The notes under the pieces were generated by a model that was given only the letters and a program-made list of their open reading frames with translations, searched no databases and had not been told where the DNA came from. Of a DNA stretch of 22,803 nt, positions 1,739-11,221 are shown piece after piece (position 1 is the first letter of the stretch; every line of letters begins with the position of its first letter). Source of the stretch: a virus; the IMG/VR virus record IMGVR_UViG_3300024518_003008, positions 1 to 22,803 of that record. One strand, given 5' to 3'. Position numbers and translations under genes: made by a program.

Positions 1739-3589
1739 CTAATGTATTTCGCCCCAGTTTTTACCCGATTCATAGTCTACCTTATTTGGTATCTCTAGTT
1801 CAACTGCAGCTTCCATTATATCGACTATGTGTTGTGCCTGTATATCATTTTCTACAGAAATATCCAGTTCATCGTGTATCTGAATATGAGGAATAATTCC
1901 CTCTTTATACAAATTTAACATAGATTGTTTTGTCATATCAGCAGCGGATCCTTGGATGAGTCTATTCAAAGCTTTGTATGTGAAAGCTCTTTTGATCCCT
2001 GGTCCGTGTTCCTTGATCGCTGTTTCATGATCCAAAGGTTTATGAATCCCGAACCTCATGGGTTCCCACAAATGAAAACGACAACGTCTACCCAACAACG
2101 TACGAATATGTCCGGCATCTTGGGCTCGGTTCGATGCAACATCCATCAGTTGTTTAACAAAGGGTACCCGACTGTGATACATTTTAAAAAGTTCGTTCGC
2201 TTTATCTTTACTCACACCTAATTCTGCTTGAAGTTTATTTTTTCCCATTCCATAAAATAATCCAAGATTAATAGTCTTCGCTTGGATTCTAGGGATGTCT
2301 GCCATCTTTGCAACAATGCCATGGAAATCTGGTTCTGTTTCCTTATAAGCTTGGACTACATCGTTCACACCATATAGGTTTTCCATCTTGGCATAGTGGA
2401 CCACGAGCCTGGGTTCTTGTTGGTTGTAATCAAAACAACCCCACTTACACTTTTCTTCAGGCAAGAAAATAGAACGAATCAAAGGTCCGAGTTCCTTGTT
2501 CCGTGCAGGAATTTGTTGAAGGTTTGGGTTATGATAACTAAATCTCCCCGTCACGGTTCCTCCATTGTCCGATCGAAGTTGATTGATTTCGGCATGGATT
2601 CTTCCCTTATGGGCATATTTTAAAATAGAATCTATAAAGGTCGTGTGTGCTTTATTAATTTCACGAGCCTTAGCTATCTTTTTTACAATAGGATTAGGGT
2701 GATTGACTAAAAAATTCTTAGTAAAACTAGGAGCTTTGGTTTTTTCTGTGCGTTCATAAACTAGCTTCAATTTTTCAAAGACTTGTGCTATACTTCTGGC
2801 CGCCCAAATCTGCACATCGATACCCGTTTCTTTCTTGACATCCCCTAGTAATTGGTTTTCCATAATTGCCAAGTTTTTTTTATGTTTATGGGCTGCTGCT
2901 TCATTAACTCTTACCCCCTTCATACGCATGTCTATTAAACAGGGTAAAAGATCTGTTTCTAATTCAAAAATAGAGTCACAATCCTCATGATAAATTTCAT
3001 ATTTCATTTCTTTCCATAAGCGTAAAGTAAGATCGGCGTCTTTTTCTGCATACTCCCCCACGTACATAGCTGGCAGCTTATACATCTCGGACTTGGGATC
3101 AACGCCCAGGGCACTCGCCGCCTCTCTTAAAGCTGTTTCATTTTTTCCTTCTTTTAGATACTCCCTGGATAAAGAATTAAGGTCATATTTAAATCTGTTT
3201 TCGTTCACAATTCCCGCAGCAATCATAGTATCAATAATTTTTCCGTTAAGTTTCATGTCGGGAAGTGTTTTAATCCAACAGACATCATACATCGCATTGT
3301 GAAAAACTTTAGAGGCATCGGTCTTTAGAATTGTTCTAAACCAATCAAGAACTTTCTTTTTATCCATATTCCCGCCCCCTTCATGGGCGATAGGGTAATA
3401 ACCTTTCCATCCTTCTACTGCGACCGCAATACCCGTTATACATCCATCATTAGTAGCGGACCCGGAGCCTCGAGTTGTTAAGTTGGTATCTTTAGTTTCT
3501 AAATCAATCGCAATTTCCTTGGCTTCTTTTAGGTCAGGAAATTCAGTGGGTTCTAACCATTCTGTTTGAGCTTTATAAAGTGTTATCAT
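1739..3589 (-). CDS. Family A DNA polymerase with 3'-5' exonuclease
   Basis: A 616-residue replicative polymerase, smaller than T7 gp5 (704). Residues 1-200 are a 3'-5' proofreading domain with Exo I D29/E31 (AIDLET), Exo II N98-D102 (HNAMYD) and Exo III Y180-D184 (YAEKD). The polymerase domain has the TGRFSYHNPNLQQIP segment (347-361), motif A D387 (FDYNQQEPR), motif B R434/K438/Y446 (RIQAKTINLGLFYG) and motif C H572-D573-E574 (IHDE). All catalytic acidic residues are present, and there is no 5'-3' nuclease domain. The residue aligning with E. coli Phe762 is Leu442, the Leu762 type. The ATG overlaps the TGA of the SET-domain gene (ATGA) with no ribosome site, so it is probably translated by coupling. 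Confidence 0.97.
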   Translation of the reverse strand: MITLYKAQTEWLEPTEFPDLKEAKEIAIDLETKDTNLTTRGSGSATNDGCITGIAVAVEGWKGYYPIAHEGGGNMDKKKVLDWFRTILKTDASKVFHNAMYDVCWIKTLPDMKLNGKIIDTMIAAGIVNENRFKYDLNSLSREYLKEGKNETALREAASALGVDPKSEMYKLPAMYVGEYAEKDADLTLRLWKEMKYEIYHEDCDSIFELETDLLPCLIDMRMKGVRVNEAAAHKHKKNLAIMENQLLGDVKKETGIDVQIWAARSIAQVFEKLKLVYERTEKTKAPSFTKNFLVNHPNPIVKKIAKAREINKAHTTFIDSILKYAHKGRIHAEINQLRSDNGGTVTGRFSYHNPNLQQIPARNKELGPLIRSIFLPEEKCKWGCFDYNQQEPRLVVHYAKMENLYGVNDVVQAYKETEPDFHGIVAKMADIPRIQAKTINLGLFYGMGKNKLQAELGVSKDKANELFKMYHSRVPFVKQLMDVASNRAQDAGHIRTLLGRRCRFHLWEPMRFGIHKPLDHETAIKEHGPGIKRAFTYKALNRLIQGSAADMTKQSMLNLYKEGIIPHIQIHDELDISVENDIQAQHIVDIMEAAVELEIPNKVDYESGKNWGEIH

Positions 3590-3888
3590 ATATTATAGAA
3601 GGTATAACGCAGGGTTATCTCTTCTCCTTTTTTTATGTCTTGGGTTGTCATGAGATTCCATTTCTTGCGATGAGAACCCTCGCTAAGTAAAAGTTCTACC
3701 TTCACACAGTTGGGAGTATTGGAATGATTAATAAATCCTCCCAAAGGAGTTCGAATGATGGCGTCATCAATCTTAATATGCGTAGTCCCCAGAGTCGTTG
3801 CTTTGTTAATCTTTTGATTGGCAAAGAGTCCTAGACCATTGATACCACTTTCTTTAATCGTTACGGATTCCGGTAGAGGTTTATACAT
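3586..3888 (-). CDS. SET-domain protein, putative protein-lysine methyltransferase
   Basis: A 100-residue protein from ATG 3888, behind AAAGGG. A TTG start at 3906 would add six residues. It carries SET-domain landmarks in order: the SAM-binding turn GINGLGLFANQKI (about 16-28), the signature GGFINHSNTPNCV (about 51-63, with NHS), and the C-terminal LMTTQDIKKGEEITLRYTF (about 79-97), matching the usual RDI..GEE.T..Y. It lacks pre-SET and post-SET parts, so it is a minimal SET similar in size to the chlorella-virus vSET (119 aa). The expected reaction is methyl transfer from SAM to a protein lysine; the target here is unknown. It overlaps the DUF3310 gene by 8 bases and polA by 4, placing it inside the replication operon. 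Confidence 0.85.
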   Translation of the reverse strand: MYKPLPESVTIKESGINGLGLFANQKINKATTLGTTHIKIDDAIIRTPLGGFINHSNTPNCVKVELLLSEGSHRKKWNLMTTQDIKKGEEITLRYTFYNI

Positions 3889-4093
3889 CTTTGTAATCCC
3901 TTTCAATAATCATTTCACAATAATGAATTGCTTTTAGTATATCTTGCTTACCATCTTTAAATGGATGCCTAGAAATATACTTAATTATATTCCCTTCTGC
4001 AAATAACATTTTATTTTCATGGACAAAAGTGCTGGGTTGAATCTTCATTTTTTTATAGTGTGATCCTCCAATTTGTTTTTCATAGATACTCAT
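3881..4093 (-). CDS. DUF3310 (SaV-like) phage protein
   Basis: A 70-residue protein from ATG 4093; an upstream in-frame GTG at 4111 would add six residues. The start MSIYEKQIGGSHYKKMKIQP followed by FAEGNIIKYISRH, KDGKQDILKAIHYCEMIIE is the typical DUF3310 pattern (GGSHY..M.IQP, then N.IKY..R...K.....DL.KA..Y). Family members are common in phages beside replication genes; some have been linked to nucleotide kinase activity like T7 gp1.7, but no kinase motif is visible in this short protein. The GTG start has no ribosome site, and the ATG overlaps the stop of the 23-aa micro-ORF as ATGA, which supports the shorter form. Confidence 0.85.
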   Translation of the reverse strand: MSIYEKQIGGSHYKKMKIQPSTFVHENKMLFAEGNIIKYISRHPFKDGKQDILKAIHYCEMIIERDYKDV

Positions 4094-4161
4094 AGTGCTA
4101 TAAAGATCCACATACAGGTTAGTATGGTTATAAATAATAAATCACTTTTCATTTCACTCAT
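4090..4161 (-). CDS. 23-residue membrane micro-ORF between helicase and DUF3310 genes
   Basis: The ORF starts at ATG 4161, overlapping the TGA of the UvrD-like helicase (4158-4160) as ATGA. It ends at TGA 4090-4092, which overlaps the ATG of the DUF3310 gene, again as ATGA. It encodes MSEMKSD followed by a 16-residue hydrophobic run (LLFITILTCMWIFIAL), enough for one membrane helix. The nearest GGAG is about 17 bases upstream, too far for normal use, so translation would rely on coupling. The exact fit between two stop/start overlaps supports a real gene or a coupling leader, but so short an ORF could arise by chance. Confidence 0.42.
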   Translation of the reverse strand: MSEMKSDLLFITILTCMWIFIAL

Positions 4162-5669
4162 ATCTGATAAAAATTATTCTCCTTTGGTGAAAGAATATAT
4201 AAGGTATGTTGAGTCCTTGTAATTCCTGTATAAAACTGTCGATGAACAGGATCAGGATTACGTTCATAAGATTTAGAAGCATTCCAAGATAGATCGGGCA
4301 TCAAAGTAACTTTTCTTGACTCTCCTCCTTTGGCTCCGTGAATAGTGGATAAGGTAATTCTCGGAGGTTTACTTAAATCCTCTCCATTTCTTTGCATCGA
4401 TTCAATATAGTTAACTGTTTTGTGATCACACTCAAGGGCTTGAGACCAGGGCCGGTTTTCAAGAAGACCATGCTGTTGTTTACAGTCCTCCATTGTATAA
4501 CTTTTATCAGGCATCATCGTTTTGCAGGTTTTGAATCCTCTCCGTAGTTGTTTTTTCTTAACGCCCAGATAACTATAGATTCTTTTAACGGATTCAAACG
4601 GGAGCTTGCCCCCTTTCCTCCATTCTTCCCATTCTAATAGGGCTGTTAAAAAATTTTCTGAAACACGGTTATTTCCTTTTGTTTGATAAGGATAGCCCCA
4701 TGATTCTAAATAATCTTTGACTCTGTCCAACATGTAATTAGCACTAGCTAACACTAACATCTTGCCTTCTTTAAAATCTACGGAACGTAAACTATGTACC
4801 CAGTGTACTTCTCCTTCTTCATCTCTAGGTTTCCATATTTTAGGTTGTCTTTTAGAAAGTCTATTTACTATTAGATCGGCCAGTTTATGTACTTTAGAGG
4901 GAACTCTATAAGATTGGGTAAGAACTGTTCTTTTCCCTTGTAATCCTAAGAAGTGATCTACATCTGCACCTTGAAAAGTATAAATAGCTTGGTCATCATC
5001 CCCGGCTATAAAAGATTTATGGGAATTCTTTTCCAGCAGATGCACCATTTGCCATTGAAGCCAGTTTAAATCCTGGGCCTCATCAACGAACAGTACATCT
5101 AACTGCGGAGCAAGTTGCTTTTGAACAACTATTTCGATGAAATCAGTAAAATCATATTTATGATTATTTTTTTTAAATACAGGTAAGGCTTTGGCAATTC
5201 GTTGTAGCTTTAACCAATTAATCTTTCCTCTATGTTCATTACGATCATACTGCTCTTCAATACTAACTCCTCGATATCGAGCGAGATTAATTTGATTTAG
5301 ATATTCATTTTTCGAGATAACCATTCCTGTTTCATCTACACTGGTTTCTGTATTAAAATTAATTACTCCAATCCACTCAGCAAATTCTTGATAATCTGCA
5401 GTTTTCATTAGTTGGGTAGAAGGATCAATTCCTAACAATCTGACCGCCATAGAATGAAGTGTGCGAAAATAAGGTAAGTCTTTTTCATTCAAGTCAAAGC
5501 CTTCAATTTTTTGAGCTCTAACAATAGCCTCAACGTTGGCTCTTTTACTAAAGGATACATAGCCAATGCGATCAGGCTTAATTCCTTCTTGTAAAGCTTC
5601 GGTTACTTTTTGTAATAATGTCTGTGTTTTTCCTGTGCCTGGAGGGCCAAATATAATTTCTCTATTCAT
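4158..5669 (-). CDS. UvrD/PcrA-like superfamily 1 DNA helicase
   Basis: A 503-residue SF1A helicase, shorter than UvrD (about 720). Motifs are in order: Walker A GPPGTGKT (8-15), motif Ia YVSFSKRANVEAI (37-49), TLHSMAVRLLG (70-80), Walker B FVDEAQD (194-200), motif III GDDDQAIYTFQGA (223-235), motif IV LTQSYRVP (250-257), motif V TLSTIHGAKGGE (439-450) and motif VI TGITRTQ (481-487). It should unwind duplex DNA 3'-5' using ATP; the accessory 1B/2B domains are reduced. Its ATG overlaps the stop of the primase gene as TAATG, so primase and helicase are produced together. With no DnaB-type helicase visible, it may be the main unwinding motor at the phage fork; that is inference. Confidence 0.95.
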   Translation of the reverse strand: MNREIIFGPPGTGKTQTLLQKVTEALQEGIKPDRIGYVSFSKRANVEAIVRAQKIEGFDLNEKDLPYFRTLHSMAVRLLGIDPSTQLMKTADYQEFAEWIGVINFNTETSVDETGMVISKNEYLNQINLARYRGVSIEEQYDRNEHRGKINWLKLQRIAKALPVFKKNNHKYDFTDFIEIVVQKQLAPQLDVLFVDEAQDLNWLQWQMVHLLEKNSHKSFIAGDDDQAIYTFQGADVDHFLGLQGKRTVLTQSYRVPSKVHKLADLIVNRLSKRQPKIWKPRDEEGEVHWVHSLRSVDFKEGKMLVLASANYMLDRVKDYLESWGYPYQTKGNNRVSENFLTALLEWEEWRKGGKLPFESVKRIYSYLGVKKKQLRRGFKTCKTMMPDKSYTMEDCKQQHGLLENRPWSQALECDHKTVNYIESMQRNGEDLSKPPRITLSTIHGAKGGESRKVTLMPDLSWNASKSYERNPDPVHRQFYTGITRTQHTLYILSPKENNFYQI

Positions 5670-7180
5670 TAAAAACTTCCTTTCTTTATTGTTGGTAATG
5701 GTTCGTTAGTATTTTTAGGACGTTCAAAAGCCTTGACCACCATTACTCTAACATTCATCTCATATATTCGGAATCTTCTTTCTTCCACTCCAAAATATTC
5801 TTTAAGACGATGAGCTGTTTTGTTGTGTTCAAGTGCTTTCCATTTAGCACGTTCTAAAAATTTCCAAAAATCTTTATACCTAAAATATGTTTCTCCCTCT
5901 TCAGTATAAGGGACACCTCTATTTAAATCTTCTTTAACTCTTCCTTTAGCTCGGTTGGTACAAAAATCTTCTAAGTAACCCCTTAGCTGTTCTTTAATGG
6001 ATAAACTTTCAGGAGCTTCTATTTCTTCGAGGTTTTTATAAAGTTGTTTTAAGAGTTTAGTCCAAATAATTTTAGAAACTCCAGGAACAATTAAATTGAT
6101 TTGATCCATGCATGCTTTTTGAAATTTATCTTGTTTTTGTAATTCTTCTGTATCTAATTCTATTGGTTTACCATTTACATTTAAAAACCATATAGGAGGA
6201 AAACATGTTAGCTTTCTTAAACTATTTAGATCTGGCATTGAAGACCCTTCCCCAATTCCAAATTCTCGAGTCTGACAAGTCATAGAATCGCAATGAGCAC
6301 AAATGGGTTGATCTTTACAGGTATAATTATAATCTTTTTTTCCTAGGGATTTAATGATGGTCATAACTTCTTGAGGATTGAGAGGAGGATTCATATATTT
6401 AGAGTTATAAATTCCTAATTGATCTTGCCAGTTATCTGGATGTGCTTTCTTAAGATAAACCCCTAAATTATACAGACCATTATTCCGTGATCCCTCAGGA
6501 AATCCTTCATTACATAAAATATCTAAACACGGAGGTCCCTTCTTGATAGGTGAATCTTCGGTTTTAATATGAATGGAATTAAAATCTTTTCTCTCAATAC
6601 CATATTTTTCATACATGAGAAAAAACTCTTCTAGAGTAGCTGCTTCGCCATTGTCTTTAATAGCATATCGTGTTGTTTGATTTCCGTGATGATAAGGAAG
6701 ATTTAAAAAATTTCCTGTATCCCCTCGATCAACTAATATTTTGGTTTGTTTTGGAAAAATTTCACATTCAGAATAACCTAACGCAGCTGCTAACTCTTTT
6801 AATTTAGCTTGCATTGCTTCGGCTTCTATAAATTCTTTCGTAAATAAAAATACATGAGCCCCTCCACTTTTGGACCTACATAAAATAAAGGGAATATTCT
6901 TTTTTCGAATTCGTGTTATAAAAGTTTTATGATCAAAATTATATTGATCAATATCAATACATCCCCATTTACATTGACTATCTGCATTAATAGGAATGAT
7001 TCCTAAGGCTGGATCTTTTCCTTCAAGATGAGCGTGCCAGAGTCTATCTGTCACTATATCTTTTTTAATAAATGCTTTTCCTTTGACTTTTTCACCGTTG
7101 GTGAGAGAAACTTTAGAGACATACTGTCCGTATGCACTATTAAGACCTTGAAATATATTTTTAAATCTTTCTACTGTCAT
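5669..7180 (-). CDS. AEP primase-polymerase (TOTE-type) with PriCT-like and Zn-binding regions
   Basis: A 503-residue protein. Residues 60-165 carry archaeo-eukaryotic primase signatures: catalytic CIDID with D76 and D78, then CRSKSGGAHVFLF (101-113) with His109 for nucleotide binding, and EIFPKQTKI/GNFLNLPY (140-163), typical of TOTE-like phage primases. Residues 222-282 (EGFPEGSRNNGLYNLGVYLKK to PPLNPQEVMTIIKS) resemble the helical PriCT module. A four-cysteine cluster follows (C288, C294, C297, C302), a probable zinc or Fe-S site. The C-terminal 180 residues are unassigned and helical. It likely makes primers for the family A polymerase. The gene is preceded by a GC-rich hairpin in a 63-base gap, the largest gap in this operon, and overlaps the helicase start by one base. 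Confidence 0.88.
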   Translation of the reverse strand: MTVERFKNIFQGLNSAYGQYVSKVSLTNGEKVKGKAFIKKDIVTDRLWHAHLEGKDPALGIIPINADSQCKWGCIDIDQYNFDHKTFITRIRKKNIPFILCRSKSGGAHVFLFTKEFIEAEAMQAKLKELAAALGYSECEIFPKQTKILVDRGDTGNFLNLPYHHGNQTTRYAIKDNGEAATLEEFFLMYEKYGIERKDFNSIHIKTEDSPIKKGPPCLDILCNEGFPEGSRNNGLYNLGVYLKKAHPDNWQDQLGIYNSKYMNPPLNPQEVMTIIKSLGKKDYNYTCKDQPICAHCDSMTCQTREFGIGEGSSMPDLNSLRKLTCFPPIWFLNVNGKPIELDTEELQKQDKFQKACMDQINLIVPGVSKIIWTKLLKQLYKNLEEIEAPESLSIKEQLRGYLEDFCTNRAKGRVKEDLNRGVPYTEEGETYFRYKDFWKFLERAKWKALEHNKTAHRLKEYFGVEERRFRIYEMNVRVMVVKAFERPKNTNEPLPTIKKGSF

Positions 7181-9138: not shown

Positions 9139-9185
9139 TAGAAAGACTAAAGTAGAAATGGGTGGCGGGATGGCACAAGAAAGTT

Positions 9186-10616
9186 ATGGATTATAAATTT
9201 AAAACAGAACCCTATGGGCATCAGCTCAAAGCGTTAGATATGTCGTGGCATAAGGACACTTTTGCCTATTTCATGGAAATGGGAACAGGTAAAACCAAAG
9301 TTCTTATTGATAATATGTCCATGCTTTATGATCGAGGAAAAATTAATGGAGCGTTAATTATCGCCCCTAAAGGGGTGATTGGAACTTGGTTTAATCAAGA
9401 ACTGCCTGCTCATTTAGTGGATCATGTGCGATGTAAAGCTGTGCTCTGGCAAGCTAACATCAATGAAACACAACAACTGAAATTAAATACCTTATTTGAA
9501 TCCGGGGAAGATCTTCATATTTTAATTATGAATGTGGAAGCATTAAGCACTCCCAAAGGAACTTCTTTTGCTTATAAATTTTTAGCTTCTCATAGGACCC
9601 TCATGGCCGTCGATGAAAGTACTACCATTAAAAACCCGAAAGCAAAGAGAACAAGGAATGTTTTAAAACTTTCTAGATTTGCACCCTATAAAAGAATTTT
9701 GACCGGTTCGCCGGTTACAAGAAACCCTCTTGATCTTTATTCGCAATGTGAATTTTTAAATCCAACCCATTTAGGATTTGAGTCTTACTATTCTTTTAGA
9801 AATAGATATGCTGAAATGTCCACGGCTAATTTTGGGGGAAGGCAAGTTCAGATCGTTAAATTTTTTAAAAATCTCAAAGAACTCGCAGAAAAGTTAAAAT
9901 ACTTTTCTTACCGTGTATTAAAATCAGAATGTTTAGATTTACCTGAAAAAATATATATGAAACGGAGTATTACTTTAACTCCTGAGCAAAAGAAACTTTA
10001 CAAACAAATGAAAGAAACCGCCATTGCGGAATTAAACAGTAAAAAAGTAACCAGCACTATTGTGTTAACTCAGTTAATGAGACTTCAACAAATTGCTTGT
10101 GGTCATTTTAAAGCGGATGATGGTAGCGTTCAACGAATTCCCAATAAACGAATGGATGAGCTGCTTGAGGTTTTGGATGAAACAGAAGGTAAATGTATTA
10201 TATGGGCCCATTGGCAACATGATATTAAATATATTATTGAAACCCTCTCGAAAGAATTTGGAAAAAATTCTGTGGTTGATTATTATGGCTTAACGCCCCA
10301 AGACCAAAGACAGAAGAATCGTGATGCTTTTCAGAATGATTCTAAAGTACGATTTCTCGTTGGAACGCCACAAACGGGGGGATATGGGATAACTCTTACA
10401 GCAGCAAGTAATGTGATTTACTATTCGAACGGATATGACCTCGAAAAGAGATTACAGTCCGAGGACCGTGCTCACCGGATCGGGCAAAAGAAGAATGTGA
10501 CCTATATTGATATTTTAGCCGAAGACACGGTGGACCAGAAAATTGTTAAAGCTTTACGTAAAAAAATAAATATCGCTTCTCAAGTAATGGGTGAAGAACT
10601 TAAATCTTGGATATGA
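9186..10616 (+). CDS. SNF2-family (superfamily 2) helicase/ATPase
   Basis: A 476-residue protein from ATG 9186 (MDYKFKTEPYGHQLKAL). An in-frame GTG at 9162 would add eight residues, but the shorter start fits the usual beginning of phage SNF2 proteins and has AAGAAAG upstream. Motifs: Q-like PYGHQLKAL (9-17), motif I EMGTGKT (31-37), motif II VDEST (142-146), motif III TGSP (173-176), motif V region TPQTGGYGITLTAA (394-407), and motif VI QSEDRAHRIGQ (424-434). This is a compact, stand-alone Swi2/Snf2 ATPase without extra domains, expected to translocate on dsDNA and remodel protein-DNA complexes or replication/recombination intermediates. It heads the only plus-strand transcript and its stop overlaps the oxygenase ATG. 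Confidence 0.94.
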   Translation: MDYKFKTEPYGHQLKALDMSWHKDTFAYFMEMGTGKTKVLIDNMSMLYDRGKINGALIIAPKGVIGTWFNQELPAHLVDHVRCKAVLWQANINETQQLKLNTLFESGEDLHILIMNVEALSTPKGTSFAYKFLASHRTLMAVDESTTIKNPKAKRTRNVLKLSRFAPYKRILTGSPVTRNPLDLYSQCEFLNPTHLGFESYYSFRNRYAEMSTANFGGRQVQIVKFFKNLKELAEKLKYFSYRVLKSECLDLPEKIYMKRSITLTPEQKKLYKQMKETAIAELNSKKVTSTIVLTQLMRLQQIACGHFKADDGSVQRIPNKRMDELLEVLDETEGKCIIWAHWQHDIKYIIETLSKEFGKNSVVDYYGLTPQDQRQKNRDAFQNDSKVRFLVGTPQTGGYGITLTAASNVIYYSNGYDLEKRLQSEDRAHRIGQKKNVTYIDILAEDTVDQKIVKALRKKINIASQVMGEELKSWI

Positions 10617-11221
10617 TGAAACTTTTAAATCTTAAAGCTATTCCGGTTGCACAGGAGAGAAATTTTTATTCCATCAATAAAAAAGAATTAGATGTGGTAA
10701 GAAAAATTAAATATAGAAAATCTAGAAAAGGATTCTATTTATCAGAGACTGTAACTTTATTAGAAGATAAAGATTTCGCCCCGCTTAAAAAAGTTATTGT
10801 TGAAAAAGCTAAGGAGTACGCCTTAGATATATTAGGGATTAAAGATAAAATTTATCTTACGCAAAGTTGGTCTACTATTAATACTACTGATGCTTTTCAC
10901 AAAACACACACTCACCCCAATACTTTTATAAGTTTAGTTTATTATGCGCAATGTGAGAATGCGTGTCTCTTTTTTGATCTAACCACCAGCTCCATTAGAG
11001 AATGTTTTAATTTTTCTTATACCATCAAGAAGTATAATATCTACAATAGTGAAAGTTGGCAGCTTCCAGTGAGGACGGGGGATATAGTTTTATTTCCAGG
11101 ACATATTCGTCATGGTTCTGTAGTCAATGAGTCAAAGACTCCGCGAATTATAATAGGAGCTAATTTCTTCCTTAAAGGAAAGCTTGGAACCCAAAAAGAA
11201 GTTAGTAATATAGTCCTCTAA
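10613..11221 (+). CDS. 2-oxoglutarate/Fe(II)-dependent oxygenase (TIGR02466-like)
   Basis: A 202-residue protein from ATG 10613, which overlaps the SNF2 TGA (ATGA). A TTG at 10607 in frame would add two residues. The family layout is visible: SWSTINTTDAFHKTHTHPNT (85-104) with His96, His99 and His101 as candidate iron ligands, FISLVYYAQCENACLFFDL (105-123) matching the SGVYY...G.L.F.D strand, GDIVLFPGHIRHGSVVNES (156-174) with distal His167, and PRIIIGANFF (177-186) whose Arg178 would bind 2-oxoglutarate. The predicted reaction is hydroxylation of a protein or small substrate using O2 and 2-oxoglutarate. Such genes are frequent in marine phages; the substrate is unknown. Pairing with an SNF2 ATPase hints at DNA or chromatin-like targets, which is inference. 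Confidence 0.82.
   Translation: MMKLLNLKAIPVAQERNFYSINKKELDVVRKIKYRKSRKGFYLSETVTLLEDKDFAPLKKVIVEKAKEYALDILGIKDKIYLTQSWSTINTTDAFHKTHTHPNTFISLVYYAQCENACLFFDLTTSSIRECFNFSYTIKKYNIYNSESWQLPVRTGDIVLFPGHIRHGSVVNESKTPRIIIGANFFLKGKLGTQKEVSNIVL

Follow-up and report, generated by a model that had tools for sequence, protein, structure and literature searches.

The window analysed here is the whole 22,803-nucleotide stretch (positions 1 to 22,803) of IMG/VR virus record IMGVR_UViG_3300024518_003008, in which a run of genes is transcribed in the order primase, helicase, DUF3310, SET and polA (Table 1). The SET gene starts with an ATG at position 3888 on the minus strand and encodes a product of 100 residues; a start at an in-frame TTG at 3906 would add six residues. 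As a first-pass annotation of this DNA had reported, the SET ORF overlaps polA and the DUF3310 gene. The three lie on the same strand, and the overlap is 4 nt with polA (start at 3589) and 8 nt with DUF3310. Its reading of the product as a SET-domain protein beside polA is borne out by the Pfam SET family PF00856, which matches residues 51-95 of the single sequence at E=7e-11 (score 42.9 bits; cut-off 22.4), and by fold comparisons with Z values of up to 12.5. The motifs described as intact are all present within the 100 residues, namely GLG at 18-20, FINHSNTPN at 52-60 and GEEITLRY at 88-95. The full length of the protein is matched by PHROG 28741, a family with no assigned function, at E=5e-30. 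With the single SET sequence as query, MLL3 structure sequences are matched at E=2e-5; with a family profile searched against PDB sequences, the MLL family is matched at E=6e-10 and vSET at E=5.7e-7. The solved structures closest to it in sequence belong to lysine methyltransferases (MLL family, vSET, NSD and SET8).

Table 1. Features of the SET locus and of the gene run around it, with positions in the window.
Feature	Position	Strand	Evidence
Minimal SET-domain protein, 100 aa	3586..3888	minus	Pfam SET; AlphaFold2 pLDDT 91.8; MLL1 Z 12.5, vSET Z 11.6
AAAGGG, Shine-Dalgarno-like, 5' of the SET start	3898..3903	minus	by eye from the sequence, without statistics
G18-L19-G20, GxG-type turn of SET-N	3829..3837	minus	G20 in 160/160 and G18 in 138/160 relatives
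N54-H55-S56, NHS cofactor/active-site motif	3721..3729	minus	N54 in 160/160 and H55 in 155/160 relatives; aligns with MLL FINHS
Y95, predicted catalytic tyrosine	3604..3606	minus	159/159; profile position 93 aligns with vSET residue 105
Residues 31-46, beta hairpin (E32-40, E43-46) at the SET-I site	3751..3798	minus	DSSP of the model; HMM gap
Residues 63-75, hairpin-tip loop	3664..3702	minus	greatest length variation in the family (alignment)
DUF3310 protein, upstream cistron	3881..4093	minus	Pfam PF11753 E=2e-10
Family A DNA polymerase (polA), downstream cistron	1739..3589	minus	Pfam DNA_pol_A E=4e-63
UvrD-like helicase, same replication gene run	4158..5669	minus	Pfam UvrD-helicase E=1e-29
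AEP-type primase with PriCT-1	5669..7180	minus	Pfam AEP-TOTE E=1.5e-14; PHROG primase

Searched as a whole by megablast against phage isolates, the window gave zero matches. The best isolate matches of its polA are phage 023Pt_psg01 (62%) and Pelagibacter phage HTVC027P (60%). Assignment to an HMO-2011-type class was dropped, the nearest isolate polA genes being those of 023Pt_psg01 and of Pelagibacter phages HTVC027P and HTVC023P; no joint mention of HMO-2011 and a SET domain was found in the literature searched. Elsewhere in the window, homologues of cyanophage Pam3 gp33 (PF23984, 8026-8589) and gp34 (PF23977, 7244-8029) adjoin the primase, and a SNF2-type helicase followed by a 2OG-Fe(II) oxygenase lies on the plus strand at 9162-11221, most other genes being on the opposite strand. 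This helicase matches the helicase parts of several PADLOC defence systems, probably through a shared helicase domain only.

SET enzymes are known mainly for the marks they place on eukaryotic chromatin and histones, and the SET-I and post-SET segments are used by most lysine methyltransferases to hold the peptide substrate. By superposing a model of the phage protein on such enzymes, the extent of its SET fold may be judged. The AlphaFold2 model, built without ligand from 44 natural sequences, has a mean pLDDT of 91.8 and a pTM of 0.81. Foldseek returned 230 PDB matches at E<=0.001, and the 50 listed are SET enzymes. In VIA-align superpositions the model reaches Z 12.5 against MLL1 (2.5 Å, 92 residues), Z 11.8 against SET8 and Z 11.6 against vSET (2.3 Å, 87 residues), and residues 1-99 are covered by SET structures, so that the SET fold extends along the whole predicted chain. 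The structure prediction that had been suggested as a check on the annotation, made here without ligand, thus places the protein among SET folds. The aligned span comprises 95 residues against 123 in MLL1 (28 fewer) and 92 against 105 in vSET (13 fewer). This shortfall falls at the SET-I site, where strands 32-40 and 43-46 are linked by a tight turn and where the alignment of the profile with MLL3 jumps from profile position 32 to 43. Consequently, in both the model and the profile alignment the SET-I helical insert is absent, and the hairpin at 32-46 takes its place. The chain ends five residues past Y95 and therefore lacks a post-SET or C-flanking segment that closes the lysine channel. Within the family, length varies most in the loop between the two strands that follow NHSxxPN, and this loop is longest in the chromosomal members from SAR11.

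Among known proteins, vSET (A612L of chlorella virus PBCV-1, PDB 1n3j/3kma) is likewise a viral, stand-alone, minimal SET protein; it trimethylates histone H3K27 and has been termed the smallest histone methyltransferase (PMC7019647). The annotated closeness in length to vSET stands in so far as the phage protein is vSET-sized or smaller, but at 100 residues against 119 it is 19 residues shorter, and its SET-I region is shorter too. Moreover, the host of vSET is a eukaryote, whereas the hosts of the phage SET proteins are prokaryotes without histone H3. The SET domains of MLL1-4/KMT2 are the top matches by both sequence and fold, and their FINHS and GEELT..Y motifs align with those of the phage protein; however, they come with a SET-I insert, a post-SET segment and partner proteins, and Gly51 of the phage protein stands where the ARFINHS motif usually has its Arg.

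Conservation was followed in 160 distinct relatives. The residues G20, R46, G50, N54, N60, E90 and Y95 are invariant, H37 (159 sequences), H55 (155) and T47 are nearly so, and the hairpin at 31-46 holds two of them, H37 and R46 (residues E90, Y95 and Y98 correspond to profile positions 88, 93 and 96). Such a pattern is that of a selected active site. Between SET alleles, pairwise dN/dS values of 0.08-0.29 indicate purifying selection, although the figures are rough because dS is near saturation. With hardly any variation at the cofactor and catalytic positions, the protein is likely to be an active, SAM-dependent methyltransferase, and sequence and predicted fold together give good support for its catalytic competence. 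A SET fold that has lost catalysis and serves as a scaffold or binding protein might be imagined from its unusually small size and from a model in which the usual substrate groove is gone, but near-invariant catalytic positions in 160 sequences are not expected of a dead enzyme, and this explanation is hardly credible.

The first-pass annotation had held SET proteins to be rare in small phage genomes, which does not fit the environmental record: relatives occur in at least 112 IMG/VR contigs with the single-sequence query and in at least 540 with the profile, though in only 7 of 50,697 isolate records. The isolate carriers are Pelagibacter phage Kolga, Prochlorococcus phage P-SSM7 and cyanophage P-RSM6 (two records each for the latter two), Marine virus AG-345-P14 and one distant podovirus. 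The PHROG 28741 members of P-SSM7, P-RSM6 and Kolga belong to one family with the SET protein of the window (45-49% identity over the full length), yet they are annotated merely as hypothetical and have other gene neighbours. The gene comes after nrdB and a small ORF in P-SSM7 and after an AAA gene in Kolga, and in P-RSM6 it lies ahead of the gp25 baseplate gene. The family is thus common in ocean phages, and it is traded between them.

The junction at which the gene lies in the window was surveyed in 74 contigs carrying DUF3310 and a related polA. In 57 of these the two genes are separated by no more than 110 bp, which leaves too little space for SET. The SET gene occupies the junction in only three contigs, including the window itself; another small ORF or spacer is found in six, and an insert of more than 1 kb in eight (L100, L101, L102, L105, L106, L115, L120 and L151). 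The inserts read hold an ORF with cytosine-5 DNA methylase motifs that overlaps a second long, repetitive ORF; one insert ORF run against Pfam matched PF00145 at E=4e-51. SET is absent from entire contigs of 53 kb and 31 kb with related polA, and in related phages elsewhere it lies several kb downstream, amid small accessory genes. The DUF3310-polA junction is therefore an accessory slot, and SET is an exchangeable accessory gene.

Two further gene types were seen near this slot. A small ORF of about 98-121 residues fills or shares the slot between DUF3310/SET and polA in L007, L015 and L148; it has a possible nuclease-like D...E.LD.KT pattern and matches no Pfam family above cut-off. In two related phages (L111:6030-6420 and L114:3177-3560), the place between polA and the gp961 homologue is taken by another SET type, which is more canonical and has a longer region ahead of NHS.

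Another finding comes from five phage contigs, a small sample made up of the window, L008, L020, L088 and L089. Their proteins are 96-99% identical for the primase, 94-99% for the helicase and 92-98% for polA, and DUF3310 is 99-100% identical save in L008 (63%), but their SET proteins share only 51-81% identity. Between the window and L020, DNA identity is 99-100% across DUF3310, falls to 83, 73 and 64% across SET and rises again in polA. The simplest reading of these sequences is that SET has been replaced repeatedly by divergent alleles; the low dN/dS and the sharp edge make rapid divergence in situ a less likely explanation.

These observations bear on the annotated suggestion that the position of the gene points to a replication or DNA-binding protein as substrate, which is not upheld. 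The overlap of the DUF3310, SET and polA cistrons in the window and a few relatives would suit an enzyme whose target is another product of the same gene run (polymerase, DUF3310 or helicase), methylated so as to tune replication. On the other hand, the neighbours of SET differ between phages, so position names no partner; most phages with a related polA have no SET at this place, the slot may hold a DNA methylase instead, most SET-bearing phages carry the gene away from polA, and its allele switches while DUF3310 remains 100% identical. Methylation of a phage protein is accordingly very unlikely, and an assignment of function from phage gene neighbours was rejected because they vary.

The changing neighbours argue instead for action in trans. 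One such action would be to methylate, and so inactivate, a protein of an anti-phage system or of a stress response of the host, with allele swapping as the mark of an arms race. The accessory presence of the gene, the exchange of alleles among near-identical genomes and the cytosine-5 DNA methylase in the same slot of relatives are consistent with this. However, no direct link to defence systems was found, the SET protein has no match in the PADLOC defence-system library, and the bacterial relatives are stable chromosomal genes with no visible defence context; counter-defence, which is a special case of action on a host protein, is therefore improbable.

Among 84,980 prokaryote genomes scanned, 29 SET loci were found, several of which are phage contigs binned with a host, others being plainly chromosomal by gene content. 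Of the hits in MAGs labelled SAR11, Euryarchaeota, Synechococcus and others, several (L166-L169, L173, L183, L192, L299 and L300) were not accepted as cellular genes, since their neighbours or tree position are phage-like. In Porticoccaceae the order is fabA-fabB-SET, beside a redoxin, ssb, an MFS gene and a protein of about 940 residues (L188:4109-8763; also L172, L175, L178, L184 and L186), and within the order of the Porticoccaceae genome SET occurs in 3 of 244 genomes at the cut-off used. The same Porticoccaceae locus is present in L194, but with no full SET ORF picked. In flavobacteria SET lies in an arginine biosynthesis operon, argG-argC-SET-proC-argD-argF-argB-argE; argC-SET-proC was seen in three genomes (L182:1873-9642, L189 and L190), and 12 of 249 genomes of the flavobacterial family carry SET. 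SAR86, Saccharibacteria and Verrucomicrobia have one locus each.

In the order to which one Pelagibacteraceae MAG belongs, 31 of 247 genomes carry the SET family. In 16 of 18 SAR11 loci (L301-L318) an M24 gene lies directly downstream of SET; the best NCBIfam match of its product is DddP, at 350 bits, under the cut-off of 600. Longer SAR11 loci contain a Rieske protein like GbcA (glycine betaine monooxygenase), a homocysteine S-methyltransferase (PF02574), a DAO/GCV_T protein like dimethylglycine dehydrogenase, Methyltransf_11, SET and M24, and some SAR11 SET loci have an SBP56/MtoX-like protein as well. The SAR11 relatives in this conserved glycine-betaine/one-carbon run, 122-146 residues long, were read at L319:1016-11949 and L320-L322. 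No earlier description of this linkage was found in the literature searched. The phylogeny that had been proposed was run: it resolves SAR11, Flavobacteria and Porticoccaceae as separate clades with phages between them, but with many forks left open (28, on 113 columns). Direct descent of the SET gene of the window from a SAR11 chromosome is unsupported in that tree of 113 columns and 28 open forks, the SAR11 chromosomal members forming a separate clade.

The chromosomal contexts raise the main rival to a protein substrate, a small-molecule methyltransferase acting on a free amino acid or osmolyte precursor, such as methionine or an amine. The SET protein BurB makes S-methylmethionine from free Met (PMC12542666). 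Like the phage protein, BurB (PDB 9L4T, 9L4V) is a prokaryotic, stand-alone, small SET enzyme, and its chemistry bears on the methyl metabolism genes adjoining the SAR11 relatives; it differs in its length of 172 residues and in its gene cluster, bur. The phage would then carry in SET an auxiliary metabolic gene linked to how SAR11-type hosts manage methyl groups and osmolytes, a role which the SAR11 gene run, the flavobacterial position between argC and proC and the missing SET-I and post-SET segments would suit. Against this, the nearest solved sequences are protein lysine methyltransferases, BurB is not among the best 60 of 162 PDB sequence matches to the family, and the NHS Asn is kept throughout. 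The absence of BurB from the fold matches listed bears neither for nor against kinship. Furthermore, the bacterial contexts vary by clade (fabAB, arg, P450, thiolase), so no one pathway is implied. A small-molecule substrate is thus possible but rather unlikely, and the more specific proposal, that the phage and SAR11 SET family of less than vSET size methylates methionine or an osmolyte precursor rather than protein, as a SET-type auxiliary metabolic gene, is doubtful.

Based on the results presented above, the gene, its family and conservation, the predicted fold, the accessory and swapped status and the chromosomal relatives are established, and the preferred explanation is that SET works in trans and methylates a lysine in some host protein, counter-defence being counted as one form of this; we would give it an even chance. 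The protein would be a catalytically competent, minimal SET-fold methyltransferase in which a compact core (GxG turn, NHS knot and GEExT..Y strand) holds SAM and the catalytic Tyr95. Without a SET-I helix or post-SET segment, substrate choice would be left to the 32-46 hairpin (H37, R46 and T47) and the variable 63-75 loop, as the model suggests. Since the gene is read within the replication run, the enzyme is probably made early in infection. Its target is most likely shared by several marine bacteria and is most probably a protein lysine, an acceptor that kinship with MLL and vSET favours, and methylation would alter the physiology of the host or one of its defences. The lack of SET-I and post-SET, the replacement of the ARFINHS Arg by Gly51, the SAR11 relatives amid small-molecule methyl-metabolism genes and the BurB precedent (PMC12542666) count against a lysine acceptor.

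Viral SET-fold enzymes are already known from vSET; the smaller, SET-I-less family of marine phages and some host chromosomes is undescribed in the literature searched, which names no function for a phage SET protein and does not link a SET domain to cyanophages either. In one paper on a Stenotrophomonas phage, a SET protein appears in the list of proteins of unknown function. That a 100-residue core without the substrate-gripping parts persists in hundreds of ocean phages and in some of their hosts implies that little of the domain is needed. The SAR11 operon linkage provides a concrete functional lead, and if the substrate is a small molecule, the marine-phage SET would act on host methyl and sulfur metabolism. 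In general, the family is a compact model, open to experiment, for how proteins or metabolites are methylated when phages infect the most abundant bacteria of the sea.
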